From Sphingobacteriales bacterium (GTDB lineage: Bacteria; Bacteroidota; Bacteroidia; Chitinophagales; Chitinophagaceae), in the NCBI GenBank assembly GCA_004295245.1, contig REAR01000068.1:1-44433 (forward strand): a stretch of 44,433 nucleotides of DNA. Direction: 5' to 3'. The translations under genes were made by a program, and so were the position numbers. The notes beneath the pieces were generated by a model. That model searched no databases and had not been told where the DNA came from. It saw only the letters and a program-made list of their open reading frames with translations. This document shows, one piece after another, positions 6,818 to 43,727 of this stretch. The stretch's first letter is position 1. Every line of letters begins with the position of its first letter.

Positions 6818-6869
6818 GTTGCAGGGTGCGACGCAACCAATGCCGGGCTTTGCACCCGTGGTGATACAA
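6818..6869 (+). repeat. Dispersed TGCGACGCAA element, copy 2
   Basis: The core GTGCGACGCAAC is at 6826-6837, followed by a CGGG/CCCG mini-stem and GTGGTGATAC as a diverged outer end. GGGTGC (6824-6829) can also pair with GCACCC further on. It lies between susC and scpA, just past the scpA stop. Confidence 0.8.
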
Positions 6870-7687: not shown

Positions 7688-7739
7688 ATAATCAGCAATA
7701 GTATTTCATATCAGCAGTTGTTGCGTCGCACCCTTCAAC
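7688..7739 (-). repeat. Dispersed TGCGACGCAA element, copy 3
   Basis: The minus-oriented core (GTTGCGTCGCAC on the plus strand) is at 7720-7731. It is preceded by ATAATCAGCAAT as the outer end and followed by CCTTCAAC. It lies just upstream of scpA. Confidence 0.85.
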
Positions 7740-11830: not shown

Positions 11831-11933
11831 GTTACCAGGCTGCTAATATAATAGCTGTAACAGTAGTTGCACAAAGCGCTACAGATGAACTGAGCGTAGC
11901 AACGATGTTACCATGCTTGCTACTGCGGGTAAA
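11831..11933. repeat. Degenerate inverted pair related to the dispersed element
   Basis: The left arm starts GTTACCAGGCTGC and contains CAGTAGTTGC. The right arm contains GTAGCAACGATGTTACC and ends CTACTGCGGGTAAAC. The outer ends and the CAACGATGTT stretch match the dispersed element, but the TGCGACGCAA core is mutated in both arms. The pair fills the 172-bp gap between frr and the WecA-like gene. Confidence 0.5.
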
Positions 11934-14180: not shown

Positions 14181-14231
14181 GTAACCAACAGCAGCATTTC
14201 AATGAAGCATCCTTGCGTCGCACTTGTTAGC
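14181..14231 (-). repeat. Dispersed TGCGACGCAA element, copy 4
   Basis: The minus-oriented core is at 14213-14223, with outer end GTAACCAACAGC at the left and a CATT/AATG mini-stem in the middle. It immediately follows the transketolase terminator. Confidence 0.85.
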
Positions 14232-15721: not shown

Positions 15722-15778
15722 GTTGAAGTGATTGCGACGCAAGGATGCTGCTTTGAAAAACAAAGGCTGGTATATTAA
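15722..15778 (+). repeat. Dispersed TGCGACGCAA element, copy 5
   Basis: The core is at 15732-15742 (TTGCGACGCAA), preceded by GTTGAAGTG. The middle forms CTTTG-AAAAA-CAAAG and the outer end is GGCTGGTATAT. It lies between the PstS-like and TPR genes. Confidence 0.85.
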
Positions 15779-19625: not shown

Positions 19626-19680
19626 GTTGAAGTGTGCGACGCAACAATGCTGCTTGAAGTTGCCAATGCTGGTTTCATAA
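19626..19680 (+). repeat. Dispersed TGCGACGCAA element, copy 6
   Basis: The core GTGCGACGCAAC is at 19634-19645, preceded by GTTGAAGT, with outer end ATGCTGGTTTCATAA. This is one of the most complete right-half copies. It lies in the gap before nuoD. Confidence 0.9.
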
Positions 19681-20944: not shown

Positions 20945-21002
20945 TGTTACCAGCCACAGAATAAAAATAAGCATCGTTGCGTCGCACACTTGTGCCACAT
21001 AT
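20945..21002 (-). repeat. Dispersed TGCGACGCAA element, copy 7
   Basis: The minus-oriented core is at 20976-20987. The outer end GTTACCAGCC is at the left; the inner side continues ACACTTGTGCCACATA, identical to the copy at 29380. It lies between nuoD and nuoE. Confidence 0.9.
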
Positions 21003-24639: not shown

Positions 24640-24780
24640 AAACCGGTGTGCAGCAGTGGTTGCGTCGCACACTTGTACAGTTGATTTTTTAAATAAGCCG
24701 GAGCACCGTTGAATGCTAATTGAATGTTGAAGTGTGCGACGCAACGGAAGTTGAATAAAGAACAAATGCTGGTATAATAA
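24640..24780. repeat. Inverted pair of dispersed elements, copies 8 and 9
   Basis: The minus-oriented core is at 24659-24670 and the plus-oriented core at 24734-24745, separated by 63 bp, with outer ends pointing away (AAACCGGTG left, ATGCTGGTATAATAA right). The pair fills the nuoG-nuoH gap. Confidence 0.88.
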
Positions 24781-29350: not shown

Positions 29351-29518
29351 GGCCAGCAGCTGTTGTAATAGCAACAGTGGTTGCGTCGCACACTTGTGCC
29401 ACATAAAATAATGCAACATTTTGTGGCTCCGCCCGGGCGGGGGTGGTACAATAGAATAACTTTCAGCTGAAGGGTGCGACGCAACAATGTTGATGCGCCT
29501 GCAAAAGCTGGTTACAAA
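29351..29518. repeat. Inverted pair of dispersed elements, copies 10 and 11
   Basis: The minus-oriented core is at 29380-29391 and the plus-oriented core at 29474-29485. The left copy has a CTGTTG/CAACAG mini-stem, and the right copy ends AGCTGGTTACAAA. Between them, GCCACATAAAAT pairs imperfectly with ATTTTGTGGC, next to a GC-rich CCGCCCGGGCGG palindrome at 29429-29440. The pair fills the nuoL-nuoM gap. Confidence 0.88.
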
Positions 29519-32415: not shown

Positions 32416-32566
32416 GCAGGTAGTCAGCATGGGTGCAATTATCAGCATCGTTGCGTCGCACCCTTCAACGGCAGTATTTCTAATGGGCAACAACAAAGTG
32501 CAAATGCACAAGAGTGCGACGCAACAACTGCTGCCATACTTACTGAAGCCGGTAAACAAACTTTTC
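32416..32566. repeat. Inverted pair of dispersed elements, copies 12 and 13
   Basis: The minus-oriented core is at 32450-32461 and the plus-oriented core at 32514-32525, 52 bp apart. The right end reads AAGCCGGTAAACAAA. The pair starts at the nuoN stop codon and occupies most of the gap to the glycosyltransferase gene. Confidence 0.88.
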
Positions 32567-33809: not shown

Positions 33810-34079
33810 TTGTACTAAATCATGTCGTATTTTTTCCACAACTTATTCAGTAAAACTTACAGAACCTGTTTTGGTCTCTATTTTGCACCTTGTTTTTATA
33901 ATTAATTACCCTAATAGAACGGATTTTTCTGCCTGCCAAATAAAATTTTTCCCTTTTAAAACCGTTTAAACCTACAGTTGATGACCCTGATTCACTTTTT
34001 GGTAAGGATTTTGCTTAAAATCAATTCTAAATCCTTGTCTGAAAAGCTAATGAATCCAAATAATCCAAATCCAGAATCT

Positions 34080-37000
34080 ATGAAAGCAAACCTGTACACA
34101 AAATCCAGGGGCATTGTGCTAATGCTCTTATTTTTAACTTTCGCTTTTCATTCCTACTCTCAACAAGTTACCAGAAATGTTACCGCTTCCAATGGTACCT
34201 ATATTGGTTTCTATGAGTTTAAGCCTTACAATTATAATGCGAACCCCACCAGAAAATATCCATTAATTATTTTCTTACATGGCATTGGGGAAAGAGGTAA
34301 TGGTACCACAGAATTACCAAGAGTGCTTACATGGGCTATTCCTAACTATTGTGCTAATGGTGCAACAATGACCTTTAATGTAAACGGGCAAGAAGAGTCT
34401 TTTTTAACCTTATCGCCGCAATTAAGTTTATCGTGGGGTAACTGGCAGCCATTTTACGTTGAAGAGATGATAAAATGGGCAAAGCAGACGATGCGTGTAG
34501 ATACCAACCGTATTTATTTAACAGGTCTTAGCCTTGGTGGCGGTGGAGTTTGGAAATATGCAACTTCTTCAGCGGCTGCAGCTAAGTCATTAGCAGCTAT
34601 AGCGCCAGTTTGCGGCACCTGTGATTATACTAATTTTTGTAATATAGCTCAGAACCGTGTAGGGGTTTGGGCATTTCATGCGCAGGACGATGGAACGGTA
34701 GGAGTGGGATGTACTTTTAATGCCATCAATCAAATTAATGCTTGCAGTCCTGTAGTAAAGCCTCGTCAATCTATTTATCCGGATGGAGGTCATTTTATTT
34801 GGAACAGATCGTTTGATACGACCCATAATATTCACACACCAAATATGTACGAGTGGTTGCTATCACATGATAGAAGTTTACCCCCACCTGCTAATGCTTT
34901 ACCAATTGCAGATGCGGGGCCTGATAAATCAATTGGATTACCAATTTCAACAACTACATTAACAGGGTTGGCTTCTTCAGATCCGGATGGCGCAATTGCT
35001 TCTTATTATTGGGAACAAATTGGAGGGCCAAACTGGACGCCTTTGTCAAGTAACCAAACGGCCACAATTACAGTAAACAGCTTAAATCAACAAGGTGTTT
35101 ATACATATAAAATGACGGTGACTGATATCGCCGGAGCTACAGACTTAGATACCGTCAGTATTAATGTGTTTCCTCCAGGAGGTTACAACGCACCGCCTAT
35201 TGCAAATGCGGGACCCGATCAGACAATTACTACCAACAGTGCTGTATTAAATTCTTATGGCACAACAGATACAGATGGTACTATTACAAGTTTCACATGG
35301 TCAAAAGTAAGCGGGCCTGCTCAGGGAACTGTAACCAATCAGAATTATGCGGTAGCAAATGGAGTTTCATTGGTAGGTGGGGTTTATAAATTTCGCCTTT
35401 TTGTAACCGATAATTTAGGTGGGGTAGATGATGACACTGTTCAGATAACAGTAAACCTTCCTGGACCAACCAACCAACCACCGGTTGCTAATGCGGGAAC
35501 AGATATTACTATTACACTACCGACAAGCAGCACAACACTGAATGGTAGTGGTTCAACAGATGCTGATGGTAGTATTAATAATTATACATGGACAAAAATT
35601 GCTGGTCCATCGTCTTATACAATTTCTAACTCTTTTGCTGCAAATACTGGTATTGGCAGCTTAACTCAAGGCACTTATTCATTCAGATTAGTGGTAACAG
35701 ATAATAGTGGATCTACAGACGATGATACGGTAAATGTTGTAGTAAATGCAGCACCGCCGCCACCACCCCCAGCAAACCAACCACCAGTTGCCAATGCAGG
35801 AACAGATATTACTATTACACTACCAACAAGCAGCACAACGCTGAACGGTAGTGGTTCTACAGATGCTGATGGAACTATTAATACTTATGCATGGACAAAA
35901 ATTGCTGGCCCTGCTACTTATACTATTGCCAATGCCTCTACTGCAAGTACCGGATTAAGTAATTTGGTACAGGGTACTTATTCATTCAGATTAGTGGTAA
36001 CAGATAATAGTGGAGCTACAGACGATGATACGGTAAATGTTGTAGTGAACGCTGCACCATTGCCACCACCACCCCCAGCAAACCAACCACCAGTTGCTAA
36101 TGCAGGAACAGATATTACTATTACACTACCAACAAGCAGCACAACGCTGAACGGTAGTGGTTCAACGGATGCTGATGGAACTATTAATACTTATGCATGG
36201 ACCAAGACATCCGGGCCGGCCAGTTATACAATTGTGAACCCTGCCTCTGTTAATACAGCGCTTAACAATCTTACGGAAGGTGTTTATACTTTCAGATTAA
36301 CTGTTGTAGATAATGCTGGTGCCAGTGCAACAGATGATGTAACGGTAACGGTAGCGCCACAACCTAATGCCGGCCCTGTTGCCAATGCAGGAAATGATAT
36401 AGAGATAACATTGCCAATCAATAGGGCTAACTTGGATGGTAGTAATTCTTCAGACCCAGATGGTTCAATTATTTCTTACACATGGGTAAGAGCAACTGGC
36501 CCAGGTGCGGTAACAATAGTCAATTCAAATACTTCCCGTCCATCAGTTGATGGTTTAAGTCAGGGGTTGTATGAATTTGAATTAACCGTAACTGATAACA
36601 GGGGGGCTGTTGCAAAAGATAGAGTGCTGGTGAAGGTGAATAAAAAACCCAATGCAAAGCCAATAGCTAAGGCAAATAAAGATACCAGTGTTGCGCTTAC
36701 TTCTGCCAAAGCAAGGTTAAGTGGCACCGAGTCTGTTGATACAGACGGAGCGATAGTTGCTTATAAGTGGACACAAGTTTCCGGCCCTGCAATTGCCGCA
36801 GTTGTATCTCCTGCAACTGTAGAAACAGAAGTATTAAACTTACAGGAAGGTGTGTATGAATTTGAATTAGCTGTTACAGATGATGAAGGAGATATTGCAA
36901 CCACTACTGTTAGAGTATCTGTTATTAATGCATTCAGATATAGTAAACTCTTTAAAATTTATCCAAATCCGGCCAAAGAAGTAATTCAATTACAGTTAAT

Positions 37001-37196
37001 TGATGATGCTAAAGGTCGTTGCAGGGTATTTATCTATGATGTAAAAGGAAGAAGTGTGTTAGAAACAGAATTTTCAAAAGATCAGTCTATGCTAACAAAG
37101 GCGATAGATGTATCAAAATTAAAGCCTGGTATGTATTATTTGCAAGTACTAGAGTCTGATGGCAGCAGAATTATGCGCCAATTTGTAAAACACTAA
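34080..37196 (+). CDS. Secreted alpha/beta hydrolase with seven PKD-like repeats and T9SS tail (paralogue 1)
   Basis: The chosen start (MKANLYTKSRG) gives a clean signal peptide; the frame is open up to 33978 and 34050 is another option. From 34080 the protein is 1038 aa. The hydrolase domain (about residues 30-270) has YPLIIFLHGIGERGNGTTEL (oxyanion-hole region), the nucleophile elbow GLSLGGGG, the likely Asp in FHAQDDGTVG and the His in DGGHFIWN. Seven PKD-type repeats of about 100 aa follow (motif NGSGSTDADG...TW...GP...VTD). A type A T9SS sorting domain starts at FKIYPNPAKE. Proline-rich PPPPPPANQ linkers separate repeats 3-5. Export should be through the type IX system. The substrate is unknown (ester, polyester or carbohydrate ester). 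Confidence 0.9.
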   Translation: MKANLYTKSRGIVLMLLFLTFAFHSYSQQVTRNVTASNGTYIGFYEFKPYNYNANPTRKYPLIIFLHGIGERGNGTTELPRVLTWAIPNYCANGATMTFNVNGQEESFLTLSPQLSLSWGNWQPFYVEEMIKWAKQTMRVDTNRIYLTGLSLGGGGVWKYATSSAAAAKSLAAIAPVCGTCDYTNFCNIAQNRVGVWAFHAQDDGTVGVGCTFNAINQINACSPVVKPRQSIYPDGGHFIWNRSFDTTHNIHTPNMYEWLLSHDRSLPPPANALPIADAGPDKSIGLPISTTTLTGLASSDPDGAIASYYWEQIGGPNWTPLSSNQTATITVNSLNQQGVYTYKMTVTDIAGATDLDTVSINVFPPGGYNAPPIANAGPDQTITTNSAVLNSYGTTDTDGTITSFTWSKVSGPAQGTVTNQNYAVANGVSLVGGVYKFRLFVTDNLGGVDDDTVQITVNLPGPTNQPPVANAGTDITITLPTSSTTLNGSGSTDADGSINNYTWTKIAGPSSYTISNSFAANTGIGSLTQGTYSFRLVVTDNSGSTDDDTVNVVVNAAPPPPPPANQPPVANAGTDITITLPTSSTTLNGSGSTDADGTINTYAWTKIAGPATYTIANASTASTGLSNLVQGTYSFRLVVTDNSGATDDDTVNVVVNAAPLPPPPPANQPPVANAGTDITITLPTSSTTLNGSGSTDADGTINTYAWTKTSGPASYTIVNPASVNTALNNLTEGVYTFRLTVVDNAGASATDDVTVTVAPQPNAGPVANAGNDIEITLPINRANLDGSNSSDPDGSIISYTWVRATGPGAVTIVNSNTSRPSVDGLSQGLYEFELTVTDNRGAVAKDRVLVKVNKKPNAKPIAKANKDTSVALTSAKARLSGTESVDTDGAIVAYKWTQVSGPAIAAVVSPATVETEVLNLQEGVYEFELAVTDDEGDIATTTVRVSVINAFRYSKLFKIYPNPAKEVIQLQLIDDAKGRCRVFIYDVKGRSVLETEFSKDQSMLTKAIDVSKLKPGMYYLQVLESDGSRIMRQFVKH
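35478..36372 (+). repeat. Three near-identical tandem PKD-coding repeats
   Basis: Units start at 35478, 35781 and 36087, giving periods of 303 and 306 bp. The first part of each unit (ANAGTDITITLPTSSTTLNG) is nearly identical at the DNA level, and units two and three are the closest to each other. This points to recent internal duplication or gene conversion. Confidence 0.85.
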
Positions 37197-37219
37197 ATAC
37201 TTTAATTAAACTCAATTTA

Positions 37220-37250
37220 AAAGGCGGTTGTAAAACCGCCTTTTTTTATT
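37220..37250 (+). terminator. Rho-independent terminator after hydrolase paralogue 1
   Basis: AAAGGCGGTT (37220-37229) pairs with AACCGCCTTT (37234-37243) around GTAA, followed by a T-run. It is 23 bp past the stop. Confidence 0.88.
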
Positions 37251-37365
37251 TGATATTTTTTTTTAATTTCAAGATCCATTCCTGTTTAAAACCACCCTGT
37301 ATTACGGTTGTAATGTTTAATCCTGCCTCTCTGTGCTTATTAACCTAAATCATTAAACTACTGCT

Positions 37366-39351
37366 ATGATGAGGAAACCACTACTCCTTGCTGCCATGCT
37401 ATTGGTATGTGTATTTGTAACTGCGCAATTAACACAGCAAACCACTTCTTACAATGGAAATACTATTGGCTTTTATGAGTTTAAACCAGCAGATTTTGCT
37501 ACAAAACCTACTTCATACAAACATCCTGTTATAATATCACTACATGGTGTGGCTGAAAGAGGCGATGGTATAACTGGCGCTGGAGGTCAATTAACAAGAG
37601 TATTAGATGCCGGCATACCATTAAAGCTGAATCAGGGGGCTACCATGCAATTTACTTGGCAGGGTAATGTGGAAAGCTTTATTGTATTGGCGCCGCAAAT
37701 GTCAACAACTTATGGTGTTTGGCAGGAATTTTACATTGATGCAATGATTGCTTACGCAGCAACCATTAATAACAGTGGCAATTTGAAGGCGGATATGAAC
37801 CGGATTTTTCTTACCGGCTTCAGTTTGGGCGGTGGGGGTTGTTGGAAATATGCAACTTCATCGGCCACGGCAGCACAAAAGATTGCTGGTATTGTTCCGG
37901 CAGCTCCTTCCGGAGATGGAACTGATTTTTGTGTGATTGCTGCAAATAAAGTAGCTACTTGGGCTTTTCATAGTATTGATGATCCAACCATTCCCATTTC
38001 TCTAACTCAAACCGCAGTTAATAGCATTAATGCCTGTAGCCCGGATGTGCCAGCAAGGGGTACATATTATACAGATGGAAGCCACGCAATATGGAATAGC
38101 CGCGTGTACGATACCTCAAATTTTTGGCATTACCCCAATATCTATCAATGGATGTTGAAAGTTAGTCGTTCTTTAAACCCTGCTACCAACCTTCCTCCGG
38201 TTGCAGATATTGTAGGGGCTCCACCAAATTACACACTCACTGTTCCTGTTAAAGAAATTTACCTTGACGGTAGTGCATCTTACGACCCCGACGATATTAT
38301 TGTAAACTATGAATGGGAAAAAGTATCGGGCCCTGCAGGCTTTAGTACCAATTTTTCAACCGGCACCCGGCCTACAACTTACCTGCGTCGTACCGACTTT
38401 GGTGTAGGGTTCGATTTGGGTACTTACCGCATTAAATTAAAAGTGCAGGATTACTTAACCACCAAAAGATCTGAAATTGCAGAAGAAGTATATATCACAG
38501 TGGCTTTGCCCACATCTGGTAATGCATTACCAGCTGCAGATGCAGGCAGCGATCTTACTTTAAACCCTAATGTTACAGCTACAACCGTATTTGGTAATGG
38601 CCGAGATTGGGATGGCTGGATAAACACCAATAGTTGGGTTAAAATTTCTGGGCCCAACGCAGGCACCATCAGCAACGGTAATACCAATAGCCCCAACATA
38701 AGTGGATTGACATTGCCCGGGGTTTATGTATATGAATACACAGTAACAGATAATAGTGGCGGACAAGGTAAAGACACCGTATCTATTACTAAACTAAGTT
38801 TTGCATTGCCGCTAACTTTTGAGTATTTAAAAGCTCAAAACCTGGGTAATAATAATTTAATAAACTGGGCCACCAGCCAAGAAGTAAACAGTAGTTATTT
38901 TGAAGTACAGCGATCTGCAAACGGAGCAAGCTTTACCACAATTGGTGTGGTAACTGCATTAAATGAAAATAAAAATCAATATAGTTTTACAGACGCAACC
39001 GCTCTTTCAGGCACCAGTTATTATCGGTTAAAACAGGTAGATAAGGACGGTGCATTCACTTACTCAAAAACCGTAGTGATAAAAAACACCAACAATAAAC
39101 TGGTTTTAGAGCGCTACCCTAACCCAGTTACCAATAACTTAAGCGTATTAGTAGCTGCAAGCAGCAACGGCAATTTGCAAATAATAATTACAGATTTGCA
39201 GGGCCGCGTGGTTAAACAAGAGCAATGGAGCAAACAACAATTACAATTACGCAAAGAAATTAATGTAGGCTTCTTAAAAGCAGGTAACTACCAATTAACA
39301 GTACAGTTTACAAACGGACAAAAGCAAACAGTTGCATTTACAAAAATGTAA
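37366..39351 (+). CDS. Secreted alpha/beta hydrolase with two PKD-like domains and T9SS tail (paralogue 2)
   Basis: This 661-aa protein has a signal peptide (LLLAAMLLVCVFVTAQ); the start may be the first or second Met. The hydrolase domain shows HPVIISLHGVAERGDG, nucleophile elbow GFSLGGGG, Asp in FHSIDDPTIP and His in TDGSHAIWN. Two PKD-like domains follow (LDGSASYDPDDIIVNYEWEK, then NGRDWDGWINTNSW, which is diverged). A domain typical of T9SS cargo (NWATSQEVNSSYFEVQRSAN...YYRLKQVDKDG) precedes the type A sorting tail LERYPNPVTNNLSV...GNYQLTVQF. It is more diverged from paralogues 1 and 3 than they are from each other. Its own terminator upstream suggests separate transcription. Confidence 0.9.
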   Translation: MMRKPLLLAAMLLVCVFVTAQLTQQTTSYNGNTIGFYEFKPADFATKPTSYKHPVIISLHGVAERGDGITGAGGQLTRVLDAGIPLKLNQGATMQFTWQGNVESFIVLAPQMSTTYGVWQEFYIDAMIAYAATINNSGNLKADMNRIFLTGFSLGGGGCWKYATSSATAAQKIAGIVPAAPSGDGTDFCVIAANKVATWAFHSIDDPTIPISLTQTAVNSINACSPDVPARGTYYTDGSHAIWNSRVYDTSNFWHYPNIYQWMLKVSRSLNPATNLPPVADIVGAPPNYTLTVPVKEIYLDGSASYDPDDIIVNYEWEKVSGPAGFSTNFSTGTRPTTYLRRTDFGVGFDLGTYRIKLKVQDYLTTKRSEIAEEVYITVALPTSGNALPAADAGSDLTLNPNVTATTVFGNGRDWDGWINTNSWVKISGPNAGTISNGNTNSPNISGLTLPGVYVYEYTVTDNSGGQGKDTVSITKLSFALPLTFEYLKAQNLGNNNLINWATSQEVNSSYFEVQRSANGASFTTIGVVTALNENKNQYSFTDATALSGTSYYRLKQVDKDGAFTYSKTVVIKNTNNKLVLERYPNPVTNNLSVLVAASSNGNLQIIITDLQGRVVKQEQWSKQQLQLRKEINVGFLKAGNYQLTVQFTNGQKQTVAFTKM

Positions 39352-39357
39352 ATACAA

Positions 39358-39412
39358 TAGTTAGCCAAGCTACAACGCTTTGCCAGACAGTTGTTGCGTC
39401 GCACTCTTCAAC
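39358..39412 (-). repeat. Dispersed TGCGACGCAA element, copy 14
   Basis: The minus-oriented core is at 39393-39404, with outer end TAGTTAGCCAAGC at the left and TCTTCAAC on the inner side. It starts within 10 bp of the stop of hydrolase paralogue 2. Confidence 0.85.
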
Positions 39413-39481
39413 TGAAGAATAAAAAGCAGCAATGAAAAATTAATAACAATAACAATATTTAATAGTAGATCTACGATGTTT

Positions 39482-39516
39482 CAAAGCGATGACACTGTCA
39501 TCGCTTTGTTTTTTTC
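39482..39516 (+). terminator. Rho-independent terminator after hydrolase paralogue 2
   Basis: CAAAGCGATGACA (39482-39494) is a perfect inverted repeat with 39496-39508, followed by eight T. It lies 130 bp past the stop, beyond repeat copy 14. Confidence 0.82.
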
Positions 39517-39747
39517 CACATATTGATATGAATCATGTGAGTTCAATTCTTCAAATTGTTTTTGGTATAATTATTGAAAATTATCTGCATCTCCTCAACT
39601 CCCTTTGAAAGCTACATTAACCTACATAGTAAGGCTGTTATTCCTTATTCAAGTTTTGTTGTTGACGTTACTCTTGCCATCAATCATCAGGCAATAGTTA
39701 TTGTTTTGTAATGGACGCATTGCAAGCGTTTAACTGTTGTGATGTAA

Positions 39748-39771
39748 CGAAAAAAGTACAGACTTTTTTCG
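39748..39771. other. Hairpin of unknown role upstream of hydrolase paralogue 3
   Basis: CGAAAAAAGT pairs with ACTTTTTTCG (10 bp) around ACAG. On neither strand is it followed by a clear T-run. It lies about 250 bp before the paralogue 3 start and could be a leader structure or an isolated inverted repeat. Confidence 0.4.
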
Positions 39772-39904
39772 ATGGGGGAGTATTGTTTTATAACAAGAAA
39801 AAAAATTCAATATTCTATAATTGCTGGTAAGTAAGGCGGCGTGTAATAGAACATAGGTGTTGCGCCAAAAAAAATCCCGTGCTGATTAGTAGTGCATAGG
39901 ATGC

Positions 39905-39956
39905 AGTGTGCGACGCAACGATGTTAGATTGAAATACAACTGCCGGTTTCAATAAA
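39905..39956 (+). repeat. Dispersed TGCGACGCAA element, copy 15
   Basis: The core GTGCGACGCAAC is at 39908-39919, with outer end TGCCGGTTTCAATA. It lies about 60 bp before the start of hydrolase paralogue 3. Confidence 0.87.
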
Positions 39957-40016
39957 AACTCTTTACAGCCAGTACGAAACCTTTTTTGTATCACTTTAAA
40001 AACTGCATCACAAACT

Positions 40017-42281
40017 ATGAGGACTTTTTTACTGGCTATGGGCATACTATGCCTTAGCTTCAATACTTTTTCTCAGCAGGTAGCCAAATCGCTTACCGCA
40101 GCTAACGGAAATTTTATTGGCTTTTATGAATTTAAGCCATACGATTACAGTGCCAACCCCGGCAAAAAATATCCTTTAATTATTTTCTTACACGGTGTGG
40201 GAGAACGTGGCAATGGTACAACTGAATTAATTAGAGTAACCGCTCATGCTATACCCAAGTATTGCGCAGCTGGTGCTACTATGTCATTTAATTATCAGGG
40301 GCAACAACATTCTTTTATGGTATTGTCTCCGCAGCTTAGCGCATACTACGGTAGCTGGGAGCCTTTTTATGTAGAAGAAATGATTAAGCATGCCAAACAA
40401 AATTTACAGGTAGATACCAACCGTATTTATATTGCGGGCCTTAGTTTGGGTGGTGGTGGCACCTGGAGATACCCTACCTACTCTGCCGCAAATGCCAAAC
40501 AAATTGCAGCTATTGCACCGGTATGTGGTACTTGCGAGTGGACAACTGTTTGCAACATTGCACAAAACAAAGTAGCTGTATGGGCCTTTCATGCACAAGA
40601 TGATGGCGTGGTAGGCGTTGGTTGTACCAACGGTGCAGTAGATGCTATTAATTATTGCAACCCGCAAATACCTGCTATTAAAACTATTTACAGCACGGGC
40701 GGCCATTGGATATGGGATATGGCTTTTGATACAACCAACAACCGGCATACACCTAATATGTATCAATGGCTTTTAAGTAATTCAAAAACTGGTACGCCTG
40801 TACCTGCACCGCCGCCAACCAATATTGTACCGGTTGCTAAAGCGGGTAACGACCAGACGATTACACTGCCCACAACTTCTGTAAACTTAGATGGCGCTGG
40901 CTCTTATGATACTGATGGTTCTGTTGCCAGCTATAGCTGGTCAAAAATATCTGGCCCTTCTGCATATACTATTGGCAATGCCACCAGCTCTTATACCGGT
41001 GTAAACAACCTGGCTTCTGGTGTATATAGCTTCCGTTTACAGGTAACTGATAACTACGGTGCTACTGCTGCCGATACAATTATTGTAACCGTTAATACTG
41101 CTACGGGTTTACAAGCTCCTGTTGCTGAAGCTGGCGACAACCAATCTATTGCAACAAATAATACGGTATTGAATTCGTGGGGCAGCTCATCTCCCAATGG
41201 GGCAATCACATCTTATTTATGGCAACAAATGAGTGGCCCAAATACAGCAGCGTTTGATTATAACTTTTACTCCACTGTAAGAATCAGCAGCCTTGCAGAA
41301 GGCACTTACTGGTTTCGTTTAACAGTTACAGATGTTGCTGGTATGAGTGCTTCAGACTCTGTAAAAGTGGTGGTTACATTAAATACGGGTGGTGGCCAAA
41401 ATCCGGTGGCCGCTGCTGGCCCCCACCAAACTATTACTACCAATAACACCGTATTAAATTCATGGGGCAGTGCATCGCCAAATGGTGCTATTACATCTTT
41501 TTTGTGGCAGCAGGTTAGTGGTCCAAATACTGCAACGGTAAACTATGGCACCTATGCTACTGCTTCGGTAAGTAATATGATTGGAGGTGTTTATAAATTC
41601 AGGTTAACGGTTAAAGATGCTACCGGTGCCAGTGATGATGATACTACAACAGTTACGGTAAATACAACCGCAGTGGCGCAGCCTCCGGTTGCAGAAGCAG
41701 GCCCTTCTCAATATATTGCTGGTTCTTCGGCTATTTTAAATTCTTGGGGTTCTACTTCGCCTAATGGCCCTATTGCCAGTTATAATTGGCAATTAATAAG
41801 CGGGCCTGCAGGTGCTGCTATTAGTTATGGTAATTATGCTGTGGCAATAGTTAATAACTTGGTGCAAGGTACTTATGCGTTTCAATTAACTATTACAGAT
41901 GTAAGCGGCGCTACTGCAACAGATACTACTTATGTATATGTAAACATAAATGGCGGTGGTGCTACCAACAGTAGCAATACCGCCTACGAGCAGGGCATGG
42001 CTGCAGCTAATAGTAATACACGTGGGTTTGTAATAGAAAAAATGTACCCCAACCCCACCAAAGATTTATTGATTGTACAAATAAACAATGCAGTGAAAGG
42101 CAATGGCCGTATGGCTGTGTATGATATGAATGGTCGTTTATTATTGCAACAAGCAGTTATAAAAACCTTTGAAAATTATAATTCAATAGTAAATATGAAA
42201 ACCCTCTCTCCGGGTCTGTACCTGGTAGAAGTAAAAATTGGCGATACGTACAGAGTGATACAGCGTATTGTTAAGCAATAA
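40017..42281 (+). CDS. Secreted alpha/beta hydrolase with four PKD-like repeats and T9SS tail (paralogue 3)
   Basis: This 754-aa protein has a signal peptide (FLLAMGILCLSFNTFSQ). The hydrolase domain is close to paralogue 1: YPLIIFLHGVGERGNGTTEL, elbow GLSLGGGG, FHAQDDGVVG and STGGHWIWD supply the likely Ser-Asp-His set. The first PKD-like repeat has the usual DGAGSYDTDGSV. The next three carry NSWGSSSPNG, NSWGSASPNG and NSWGSTSPNG in place of the Asp-rich turn. The type A sorting domain is MYPNPTKDLLIVQI...GLYLVEVKIGDTYRV. The convergent HAD phosphatase gene ends only 3 bp away. Confidence 0.9.
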   Translation: MRTFLLAMGILCLSFNTFSQQVAKSLTAANGNFIGFYEFKPYDYSANPGKKYPLIIFLHGVGERGNGTTELIRVTAHAIPKYCAAGATMSFNYQGQQHSFMVLSPQLSAYYGSWEPFYVEEMIKHAKQNLQVDTNRIYIAGLSLGGGGTWRYPTYSAANAKQIAAIAPVCGTCEWTTVCNIAQNKVAVWAFHAQDDGVVGVGCTNGAVDAINYCNPQIPAIKTIYSTGGHWIWDMAFDTTNNRHTPNMYQWLLSNSKTGTPVPAPPPTNIVPVAKAGNDQTITLPTTSVNLDGAGSYDTDGSVASYSWSKISGPSAYTIGNATSSYTGVNNLASGVYSFRLQVTDNYGATAADTIIVTVNTATGLQAPVAEAGDNQSIATNNTVLNSWGSSSPNGAITSYLWQQMSGPNTAAFDYNFYSTVRISSLAEGTYWFRLTVTDVAGMSASDSVKVVVTLNTGGGQNPVAAAGPHQTITTNNTVLNSWGSASPNGAITSFLWQQVSGPNTATVNYGTYATASVSNMIGGVYKFRLTVKDATGASDDDTTTVTVNTTAVAQPPVAEAGPSQYIAGSSAILNSWGSTSPNGPIASYNWQLISGPAGAAISYGNYAVAIVNNLVQGTYAFQLTITDVSGATATDTTYVYVNINGGGATNSSNTAYEQGMAAANSNTRGFVIEKMYPNPTKDLLIVQINNAVKGNGRMAVYDMNGRLLLQQAVIKTFENYNSIVNMKTLSPGLYLVEVKIGDTYRVIQRIVKQ

Positions 42282-42284
42282 TTT

Positions 42285-42875
42285 TTACCGGAACGGAGTA
42301 TAATACGATAAGGTGGCAAGCGCTAACATGGGCTTGTCACCTTTTGTATCTCCATAGCAATAGATGTGTTGGTACTGTTGCAGGTTATAGCGTTCTTTAA
42401 TTCTTCTTACTTTTTCTTCACCGTAGCAATTAGCCCCTTCAATATTGCCGGTAATGCAATTGTTTTGTATTTGTAAGCGGGTGCCCATTAATTCTATATT
42501 ATGCTGGCGGCACCAATAAGCAATCCAGTTTTCTGCAGAGGCAGATACAATAACAATGGTAGCGTTGAGTGCTTTTAGTTTTTCTATTTCTATTAATGCT
42601 TTGGGGCGTATCAATTTGGGTAATTCTTTTGCAGCAAAATCATCACACATTGTTTGAAACTGATGTGCTGGCATATTTTTAAAAAAATGTGCCAACACTT
42701 TTTCTTTAGCTGCCTGGTTAGTAATAAACCCCAGCTTATAAGCCACCAGCCAGGGTGCTTGTAATGCAAAGCCTGCATAAAACCCCAGCCGCCCTTTCCG
42801 AAATTTTAAAATTTCTAATAAGGTGTCTTTGGTGGTAATAGTGCCATCAAAATCAAAAAAGGCAATAGTTTGCAT
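42285..42875 (-). CDS. HAD-superfamily IB phosphatase
   Basis: This 196-aa cytoplasmic protein has the HAD motifs in order: motif I FFDFDGTITTKDT near residue 6 (nucleophile Asp), motif II VSASAENW near residue 110, a Lys in EEKVRRIKE near residue 154, and motif III YCYGDTKGDKPML near residue 172. The cap is the short helical type of subclass IB, as in SerB-like and PGP-type phosphatases. It is downstream of a DprE2-like SDR and a DprE1-like oxidase on the same strand. In actinobacteria a phosphatase acts in the same polyprenyl-phospho-pentose pathway, so a lipid-linked or sugar phosphate substrate is plausible (inference). Confidence 0.88.
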   Translation of the reverse strand: MQTIAFFDFDGTITTKDTLLEILKFRKGRLGFYAGFALQAPWLVAYKLGFITNQAAKEKVLAHFFKNMPAHQFQTMCDDFAAKELPKLIRPKALIEIEKLKALNATIVIVSASAENWIAYWCRQHNIELMGTRLQIQNNCITGNIEGANCYGEEKVRRIKERYNLQQYQHIYCYGDTKGDKPMLALATLSYYTPFR

Positions 42876-42922
42876 TTGTTTTTTTATGGGTAACCGGCAG
42901 TAGTATGGCTATTGGGCTTTTC

Positions 42923-42998
42923 TTGCGTCGCACACGTGTACTGCAGTACACGTGTGCGACGCAACGATGTTGAATAGTTATACCACTGCTGGTAACTA
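42923..42998. repeat. Perfect 42-bp palindrome made of element copies 16 and 17
   Basis: 42923-42964 is a perfect inverted repeat (21 + 21 bp, centre CTG/CAG at 42943/42944) formed by a minus and a plus core (42923-42933 and 42954-42965). The right arm continues CGATGTTG to CTGCTGGTAACTA, overlapping the SDR stop codon. It can form a long hairpin between the SDR and HAD genes. Confidence 0.93.
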
Positions 42999-43727
42999 TA
43001 TTTTCATTTTCTTAAACTGAAACTCTGGTATATTTTTTATTATGAGCATTAACCAGCGCCACATCCATTTTACATATACTGTGTTCTTCTTTTTTTGTAC
43101 GGCAGCAAAAACAGTTTTTGCAACCAGTGCCGGAGTAGCCGTTAATAAGCCGGGTAATTTTAAATCTTCCGTCATTTTGGTATAAACAAAACCGGGCTTA
43201 ACGGTTACCACATGCACGCCGCTTTTAAAAAGATAATTACGTAAGCCATCTAAATATGCCGTAAAGCCGGCTTTGCTGCTGCCATAAATTAATTTAGAAG
43301 CACGGCCTCTTTCTCCGGCCACAGAACTGATGCCAGCAATACAACCTTTTTGTTGCTGCTGGTAATGTGCTGCAATAATATTGAGTATGGATACGGCACC
43401 AGTATAATTAGTGTCTATCATTTGCTGTGCCAGGTGCCAGTTGGTAAAAGAATCGTCTTCATTGTGCATTACGCCAAACACGCAAATGGTTACATCTGGC
43501 TTTACCGGCAGCGATTGAAAAAATGCATGGTGTGAAGCATAGTTCACCGCATCAAACTCGTGCAGGGTGCAGCTGTTGCTGTAACGTATGGCAATATCTG
43601 ATTGGGCAGCAGTTAGCCGCTGCACATTGCGGGCAGCTAACTGTACATTGTATTGGTTGGCTGCAAATTCTTTTGCAATAGCCATTGCTATGTCTGAACT
43701 GGCGCCAAGTATTAAAACGGTTGACAT
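42996..43727 (-). CDS. Short-chain dehydrogenase, DprE2-like
   Basis: This 243-aa cytoplasmic Rossmann oxidoreductase has the NAD(P)-binding motif GASSDIA at residues 8-14 and QLAARNVQRL near residue 29 for cofactor recognition. The catalytic region is GISSVAGERGRASKLIYGSSKAG (Ser, Tyr and Lys of the SDR triad). The C-terminus TVYVKWMWRWLMLIIKNIPEF is hydrophobic, as in DprE2 homologues. It begins 2 bp after a DprE1-like oxidase, and the DprE1/DprE2 pair together epimerises polyprenyl-phospho-ribose to arabinose in mycobacteria. The equivalent reaction here is inferred from pairing and similarity. Confidence 0.85.
   Translation of the reverse strand: MSTVLILGASSDIAMAIAKEFAANQYNVQLAARNVQRLTAAQSDIAIRYSNSCTLHEFDAVNYASHHAFFQSLPVKPDVTICVFGVMHNEDDSFTNWHLAQQMIDTNYTGAVSILNIIAAHYQQQQKGCIAGISSVAGERGRASKLIYGSSKAGFTAYLDGLRNYLFKSGVHVVTVKPGFVYTKMTEDLKLPGLLTATPALVAKTVFAAVQKKKNTVYVKWMWRWLMLIIKNIPEFQFKKMKI

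Follow-up and report, generated by a model that had tools for sequence, protein, structure and literature searches.

Why does a perfect 42-bp palindrome stand between two genes of a Chitinophagaceae genome? The question concerns both whether the palindrome is real and what kind of sequence it is made of. It arises in a window of 44,433 nucleotides, the whole stretch of DNA that was analysed, from a 3.37-Mb genome referred to here as G000.

The palindrome and the junction that it occupies

The two arms, 42923-42943 and 42944-42964, are 21 nt each and 100% complementary with a spacer of 0, as the first-pass annotation had claimed. At the composition of the window, 2.3e-8 perfect 42-bp palindromes are expected by chance, and the second-longest perfect palindrome in the window measures 18 bp. 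Two opposed copies of one repeat meet here, also as proposed, each arm consisting of an 11-bp core, TTGCGTCGCAC, and an inner tail. Imperfect pairing extends beyond the perfect palindrome on either side, through the outer arms GGTAACCGGCAGTAGTATGGCTATT and AATAGTTATACCACTGCTGGTAAC, and the inverted pair centred on 42923-42964 spans ~110 nt, from ~42889 to 42998. This pair is predicted to fold at -35.9 kcal/mol as DNA (z -9.3) and at -59 kcal/mol as RNA of the coding (operon) strand (z -10.8). An Rfam scan of the window returned 0 matches at the gathering score; within 42800-43100 the best weak match was MIR810, at 25 bits with 170 needed. The stretch 42923-42964 is best read as the place where two units of a dispersed, non-coding miniature repeat join into a convergent dimer. 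The window holds 18 cores of this repeat, comprising 16 exact copies of TTGCGTCGCAC (class A), one TTGCGTCGCAA and one of class C, arranged with the flanking genes as follows.

42285-42875, minus strand: HAD-IB family hydrolase, lying downstream at the split junction (profile match)
42880-42885: T-run beside the left unit's outer end; read on the coding strand, an A-run ahead of the HAD start (sequence; the unit consensus includes a T-run)
42889-42943, plus strand: left unit, with outer end GGTAACCGGC, variable middle, core at 42923-42933 and inner tail at 42934-42943 (unit consensus; limits approximate)
42923-42964: perfect 42-bp palindrome, two abutting cores TTGCGTCGCAC with inner tails (sequence)
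42944-42998, minus strand: right unit, opposed, with inner tail, core at 42954-42964 and outer end, the last bases being the SDR stop TAG (sequence)
42996-43727, minus strand: SDR family oxidoreductase, upstream gene, DprE2-like at a score below that model's cut-off (profile match)
24660-24744: convergent pair, cores 24660-24670 (plus) and 24734-24744 (minus) (core search)
29381-29484: convergent pair, cores 29381-29391 (plus) and 29474-29484 (minus) (core search)
32451-32524: convergent pair, cores 32451-32461 (plus) and 32514-32524 (minus) (core search)
39394-39918: convergent units in one gap, 514 nt apart, cores 39394-39404 (plus) and 39908-39918 (minus) (core search)
7721-7731, plus strand: single unit core, class A (core search)
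14213-14223 and 20977-20987, plus strand: further single A cores (core search)
1671-1681, 6826-6836 and 19634-19644, minus strand: further single A cores (core search)
15732-15742, minus strand: single unit core, variant TTGCGTCGCAA (core search)
11892-11902, minus strand: single unit core, class C, TTGCTACGCTC then A (core search)

In the same window, three adjacent long ORFs at 33978-42281 have repeated stretches in common and look like paralogues.

Tight pairs, in which two opposed exact cores are separated by no more than 30 nt, number 38 in the genome and take solely a 36-nt (31) or a 42-nt (7) form; 20 of the 38 are perfect palindromes, two of these in the 42-nt form (42923-42964 and one in contig C84). 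The suspicion that the palindrome is an assembly artefact, whether a false join or an inversion error, can draw on the fragmentation of the assembly into 269 contigs and on contig C141, which terminates in an apparent unit tail. It is nevertheless exceedingly improbable, given that the site lies ~1.5 kb inside its contig between two intact genes, that the tight pair recurs 38 times, and that convergent units are present also in G164, a one-contig genome. The same counts tell against the earlier argument that a perfect hairpin of this size is normally unstable and hence either recent or maintained. With 20 of 38 tight pairs perfect, perfection is not unique and is poor evidence of recency, and the perfect centre is mostly explained by a core that is nearly invariant genome-wide. 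An 824,209-base sample of the genome, window included, contains 13 perfect palindromes of at least 36 bp and up to 50 bp, that at 42923-42964 among them, which makes it typical of a class. A small hint of local homogenisation is the rare tail ACGTG shared by both arms, found in 4/258 A units, these two included.

The neighbouring genes had been described as DprE2-like and HAD. The second label stands and can be narrowed to HAD-IB hydrolase (TIGR01490, above cut-off). The first is better given as SDR (NF005489, above cut-off), the DprE2 model NF053786 reaching 202 of the 250 bits that its cut-off demands. The outer end of the element does supply the SDR stop codon, TAG at 42998-42996 on the minus strand. 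An empty site, for which the annotation had pointed to sister genomes, is present in relatives. Ten with a close SDR were compared, HAD lying beside SDR in nine (in G016 no HAD was seen beside SDR), and 8/9 comparable junctions are free of insert. In these eight (G001, G002, G004, G008, G009, G023, G029 and G030) the SDR TGA overlaps an ATG, GTG or TTG in the HAD frame, a putative HAD start read from sequence. The SDR/HAD gap of G011 (L107) holds a different inverted-repeat insert of ~185 nt.

The comparison indicates that in G000 a dimer was inserted at an SDR-HAD junction that overlaps in 8/9 comparable relatives. The dimer stands between the SDR stop and the start of HAD, and any translational coupling that existed would thereby have been lost. 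A transcript of SDR and HAD would contain a 42-nt perfect hairpin between both genes, and a REP-like influence on mRNA stability or HAD expression is plausible by analogy.

A directional unit with few core classes

The exact core occurs 955 times in G000, against 2 occurrences of the reversed control, and the repeat recurs once per ~3-4 kb, between genes. Its unit is a directional stretch of ~55 nt or more, with an outer end beside the gene (a T-run, then ACC[AG]GC), a variable middle, the 11-bp core, and an inner tail of CTTGTAC or CTTCAAC type that points into the gap. When units are aligned on the core, ACC[AG]GC lies ~28 nt before it and CATCG- or CTTTTG-like letters immediately before it; the flanks of any two units are ~42% identical (ungapped). 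Besides the tight pairs, a first sample of G000 (440,041 bases) contains pairs with a core-to-core spacing of 42-145 nt and many solitary units, and a second, separate set (384,168 bases) has 35 convergent pairs and 1 divergent pair less than 200 nt apart. Single units are without structure of their own in five unit sets, with alignment folds of -0.3 to -1.3 kcal/mol; the mean single-unit MFE z is ~0 for every set but G000, where it is -1.6. Mean identity is 0.412 for single units and 0.430 for paired ones, a difference equalled in 5/200 random splits.

Because units had been picked by their core, the flanks were also searched with the core masked, at thresholds giving 3 control hits each and with matrices trained on core-selected units, which makes the search not wholly independent. 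In G000 this returned 164 matches, of which 138 carried A, A2 or B cores and 11 carried class C (TTGC[CTG]ACGCTC), with 0 at one mismatch and the rest unrelated or shifted. Canonical cores accounted for 114/126 matches in G164 (4 more with one mismatch), 34/51 in G172 (4), 28/37 in G087 (1) and 21/39 in G026 (1, and 14 unrelated). Core classes are few and discrete, intermediates between them being scarce, whereas the flanks vary. Within class C, written TTGCXACGCTCY, X matches Y (C-G 23, T-A 14, G-C 10, G-T 1, A-C 1; n=49 distinct contexts in the loci examined). In G164, 40/117 units carry a second core, TTGTGTCACTC, and convergent pairs less than 300 nt apart in that genome are AB (9), BA (6), AA (5) and BB (0). 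A loose flank-only scan for more core classes gave 958 unclassified matches against 769 control matches, the controls not being deduplicated; further classes are therefore quoted solely from cases seen by eye. Short hairpin inserts occur in or beside the core at L309, L258, L302 and L184, which makes the core look like a hot spot for insertion.

At least one exact core is present in 261/394 Chitinophagaceae genomes, and 133/394 are without an exact A core. Counts are highest in G230 (2170), G172 (1832), G164 (1690, on one 5.53-Mb contig), G094 (1640) and G087 (1367), and the two congeners of G000, each ~85% complete, have 3 and 1. High counts in other genera against 3 and 1 in congeners were counted as the patchiness of mobile DNA. 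Among 23 genomes from other families of the order, the exact core occurs 0-2 times, like the reversed control (0-3). Within one paper library, a literature search by core string (TTGCGTCGCAC, GTGCGACGCAA) and by topic returned no title describing the repeat, and the string matches were, by their titles, all on eukaryotes.

Gene borders and alternating orientation

Units keep to the borders of genes. In 440 kb, 132/138 exact-core units lie outside ORFs as delimited by a crude caller, with a median distance to the gene of 31 nt for the outer end and 98 nt for the inner end. Among G000 gaps of at least 50 nt, with all core classes counted, occupancy is 50% for tandem (n=147), 67% for convergent (n=42) and 29% for divergent gaps (n=41). 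Where a gap holds two units, these converge in nearly every case (39 convergent, 1 divergent and 0 parallel in G000; 19, 1 and 0 in G164). Gaps with both slots filled are over-represented in G000 (odds 3.2, p 0.0001) and G172 (odds 15, p 0.0003), an excess not seen in G164, G087 or G026.

Single units in separate gaps likewise alternate in orientation. Sorted by distance (below 1.5, 1.5-3, 3-5 and above 5 kb), parallel and alternating neighbours stand at 0:21, 1:19, 4:11 and 3:4 in the first G000 set, at 1:15, 1:23, 2:10 and 0:3 in the second and at 2:16, 6:12, 2:7 and 1:1 in G164, the last series being significant only below 1.5 kb. Permutation of single orientations yields P <1/5000 in G000, 0.0012 in G164 and 0.011 in G087, and no significance in G172 (0.33) or G026 (0.76). 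Neighbour orientation alternates within ~3 kb in G000, and the pattern is weaker or absent elsewhere. Three '-+' neighbours less than 200 nt apart occur in the G000 sample. Such alternation in direction is unusual for an ordinary repeat and is not predicted by simple random insertion.

One candidate cause, both-or-none pairing around a gene block, was set aside, with p 0.43 in G000 and 0.27 in G164. Alternation showed no dependence on core identity when homotypic and heterotypic neighbours were compared.

Site-specific recombination at the cores would offer another cause: direct repeats would delete the intervening DNA and be purged, inverted repeats would only invert it and survive, and alternation as well as core identity would therefore follow. 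The rarity of parallel neighbours at short range fits this account. Across all unit pairs in G000, parallel to opposed counts in the bins 0.2-1, 1-2, 2-3 and 3-4 kb are 1:19, 3:39, 27:48 and 70:72, which gives 4:58 for 0.2-2 kb and equality beyond 3 kb. The avoidance of parallel pairs is, however, not confined to identical cores. At 0.2-3 kb, parallel pairs are 3 homotypic and 5 heterotypic and opposed pairs 54 and 44 (Fisher p 0.47 in G000, with A and A2 counted as different; 0.78 in G164), and recombination at the cores is accordingly a very unlikely explanation.

Possible mobility or recognition, and relation to known repeats

Dimer insertion, border position, discrete core classes and alternation are features of the data; what spreads or keeps the units is a matter of interpretation. 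The account that we judge probable is that of a miniature element of REPIN-like kind, its core under strong constraint, which is mobilised in trans and enters gene borders, often next to A/T runs. Units would spread by DNA mobilisation through some enzyme acting in trans, perhaps since lost, and the core would stay exact because something must recognise it. In favour of mobility are the 955 cores against 2 in the control, the 1690-2170 copies in some genera, the insert-free junction in 8/9 relatives, the position of 132/138 units outside ORFs, the convergent two-unit gaps, and the masked-core search of G000, in which 138/164 matches had A, A2 or B cores. An orthologous gap in G164 (L188:2549-2720) and G082 (L223:3200-3300) points the same way: in both genomes the stop codon is followed by a '+' unit of class B type, and an additional '-' A unit is present solely in G164.

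Against it, neither the Y1 nor the RAYT-like loci examined revealed a linked transposase. G000 itself has one Y1 match, of IS200 type (NF033573 above cut-off, RAYT model NF047646 below), with a '+' unit on one side and, on the other, a contig end resembling a '-' unit tail, an arrangement that looked like a REPtron. Yet units were found in the searched flanks of 2/28 and 2/30 Y1 loci, this gene counted in both, and within 700 nt of 0/20 RAYT-like loci. Other palindromes, of CCCACGGTTTAAACCGTGGG, AAACCGTTTTAACGGTTT and AAATGGTTTAAACCATTT types, flank the IS200-type Y1 gene in 9/10 loci by eye (L040:5605-6323, L136-L139, L142-L145), the tenth, L154, having yet another palindrome family, and G026 carries 263 A cores with no Y1 match. 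A linked tyrosine transposase was rejected on these grounds. Composite transposons were rejected as well: the convergent units listed at spacings of 0.5-2.7 kb enclose what read as ordinary or core genes such as rplS, mraY and ATP synthase epsilon (names by eye), and no transposases. Also counted against mobility are the absence of an established target-site duplication or exact element end, relatives being too diverged to fix the ends, the apparently near-equal divergence of single and paired units, the sites that different genera have in common, and an alternation that simple random insertion would not produce.

Among ten class A copies each in G035 and G029, which belong to different genera, 3/10 sites are common and in the same orientation: recR to metH, 5' of prfA and 5' of trpB (gene names read from sequence). 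Of 80 prfA loci, source genome G035 included, 76 had sufficient upstream DNA; a unit lies within 300 nt upstream in six of them, in a single orientation, with A (2) and B (4) cores, and the 520 kb of these loci hold 3 other units elsewhere. At recR, a unit stands at +200 to +235 in 4/30 loci, again with G035 included, in a single orientation and with cores A, B, C and C; one other unit occurs in the 108 kb of these loci. Inspection by eye shows one common, site-specific inner flank in prfA-gap units whether their cores are A (L235, L280) or B (L275, L302), which suggests that a core may change in place at this site; independent insertion at a hot spot may also account for these units. G164 and G087 have similar outer flanks at trpB, but the core is lost in G087.

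The main rival to the mobile element is a recognition signal that is spread over the whole genome and exists in dialects. In this reading the core would be the binding site of a putative trans-acting factor, serving for instance DNA uptake, the organisation of the chromosome or the processing of transcripts; units would be kept by selection at gene borders, and the core class would shift when the factor's specificity shifts. The discreteness of the core classes, with scarce intermediates and variable flanks, alternation within ~3 kb, the three sites common to G035 and G029, the uniform orientation with mixed cores at prfA and recR, and the inner flank common to A- and B-core units in the prfA gap are all in keeping with it. 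On the other side, no such factor is known; 133/394 family genomes are without an exact A core and congeners have 3 and 1, so that the signal would be dispensable or replaced there. In addition, 70/76 prfA and 26/30 recR loci are without an exact unit at those sites, the trpB core was lost in G087 despite its conserved outer flank, and the prfA and recR sets each contain the source genome G035. On balance we regard the recognition signal as unlikely, and it and the mobile element can both be partly true. More speculative, and to be held with still greater doubt, is a Chitinophagaceae-wide directional recognition code, in which gene borders would carry ~1000 or more sites, each with an exact 11-bp core, in few dialects that switch in place and alternating within ~3 kb, to be read by a putative factor shaping chromosome, transcript or DNA-exchange behaviour.

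By analogy with the parts of PMC3116915, PMC3733652 and PMC6006769 that bear on it, the repeat appears to work like a REPIN/BIME system. It resembles REPINs and BIMEs, as described in the relevant parts of PMC3116915 and PMC2817692, in its high copy number between genes, hairpin-forming inverted doublets, alternating orientation and patchy copy number; inverted doublets are over-represented in G000 and G172. It differs in that its unit is not palindromic, it has no RAYT link, RAYT-like genes flanked by the repeat numbering 0/20, and its alternation spans genes to ~3 kb. Whereas REPIN singlets are decayed according to the pertinent part of PMC3116915, single units here appear hardly more diverged than paired ones. 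With 955 copies and 132/138 units outside ORFs, the repeat is high-copy and extragenic as REPs are; the REP monomer is a palindrome or hairpin and the single unit in five sets is not, and the repeat is therefore not a REP.

CGTC-tagged REPs, in the portion of PMC3733652 that concerns them, are intergenic, form mostly opposed dimers, have no flanking transposase and come also from Bacteroidetes; the present repeat shares these traits and has CGTC within its core. Unlike them, as far as that portion defines them (terminal CGTC, an 8-9 bp stem starting with AT, and a CCA tail), the unit consensus has no AT-starting 8-9 bp stem beside CGTC, no CCA tail and no foldable monomer. The same source describes, in part, GTAG REPs whose ends supply a TAG stop codon, as the unit end does here.

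MITEs are likewise non-coding, with opposed ends and patchy copy number, but the present repeat has no fixed length, its single units are common, and no target-site duplication was established among relatives too diverged to fix exact ends. DNA uptake sequences of Neisseriaceae and Pasteurellaceae occur as very many exact short cores, in dialects and with frequent inverted pairs. The repeat may be likened to these in its numerous exact short cores, dialects and inverted pairs, but its flanks are conserved over tens of bases and it is almost wholly intergenic.

A family reaching ~2000 copies, with non-palindromic units, discrete cores and distance-limited alternation, does not fit the REP/RAYT picture. 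The repeat offers a test case for high-copy spread without a linked tyrosine transposase, and the conserved sites at prfA, recR-metH and trpB are places to measure selection on a non-coding signal.

Several observations stand beside these results. Between recR and metH lies a conserved RNA-like block, GGCGGATTTGTTTATTGTTCGGCCT ... GAACTAATAAACG ... CGTTTATA (L315, L326, L329, L341, L342; L176:1540-1650), which in L315 has no Rfam match at E 0.1. A RAYT-like gene of G029 beside trpB (L184:800-1860; NF047646 at 76 bits, cut-off 80) is flanked by palindromes of CATAGTCAGAGACTATG and CCGAAGTCAGAGACTTCGG types, and in the unit that follows the gene a hairpin insert interrupts the core. Eleven stretches of viral contigs (L345-L355), which may be phage or host DNA, contain the exact extended core GTTGCGTCGCACWCTTGTAC.
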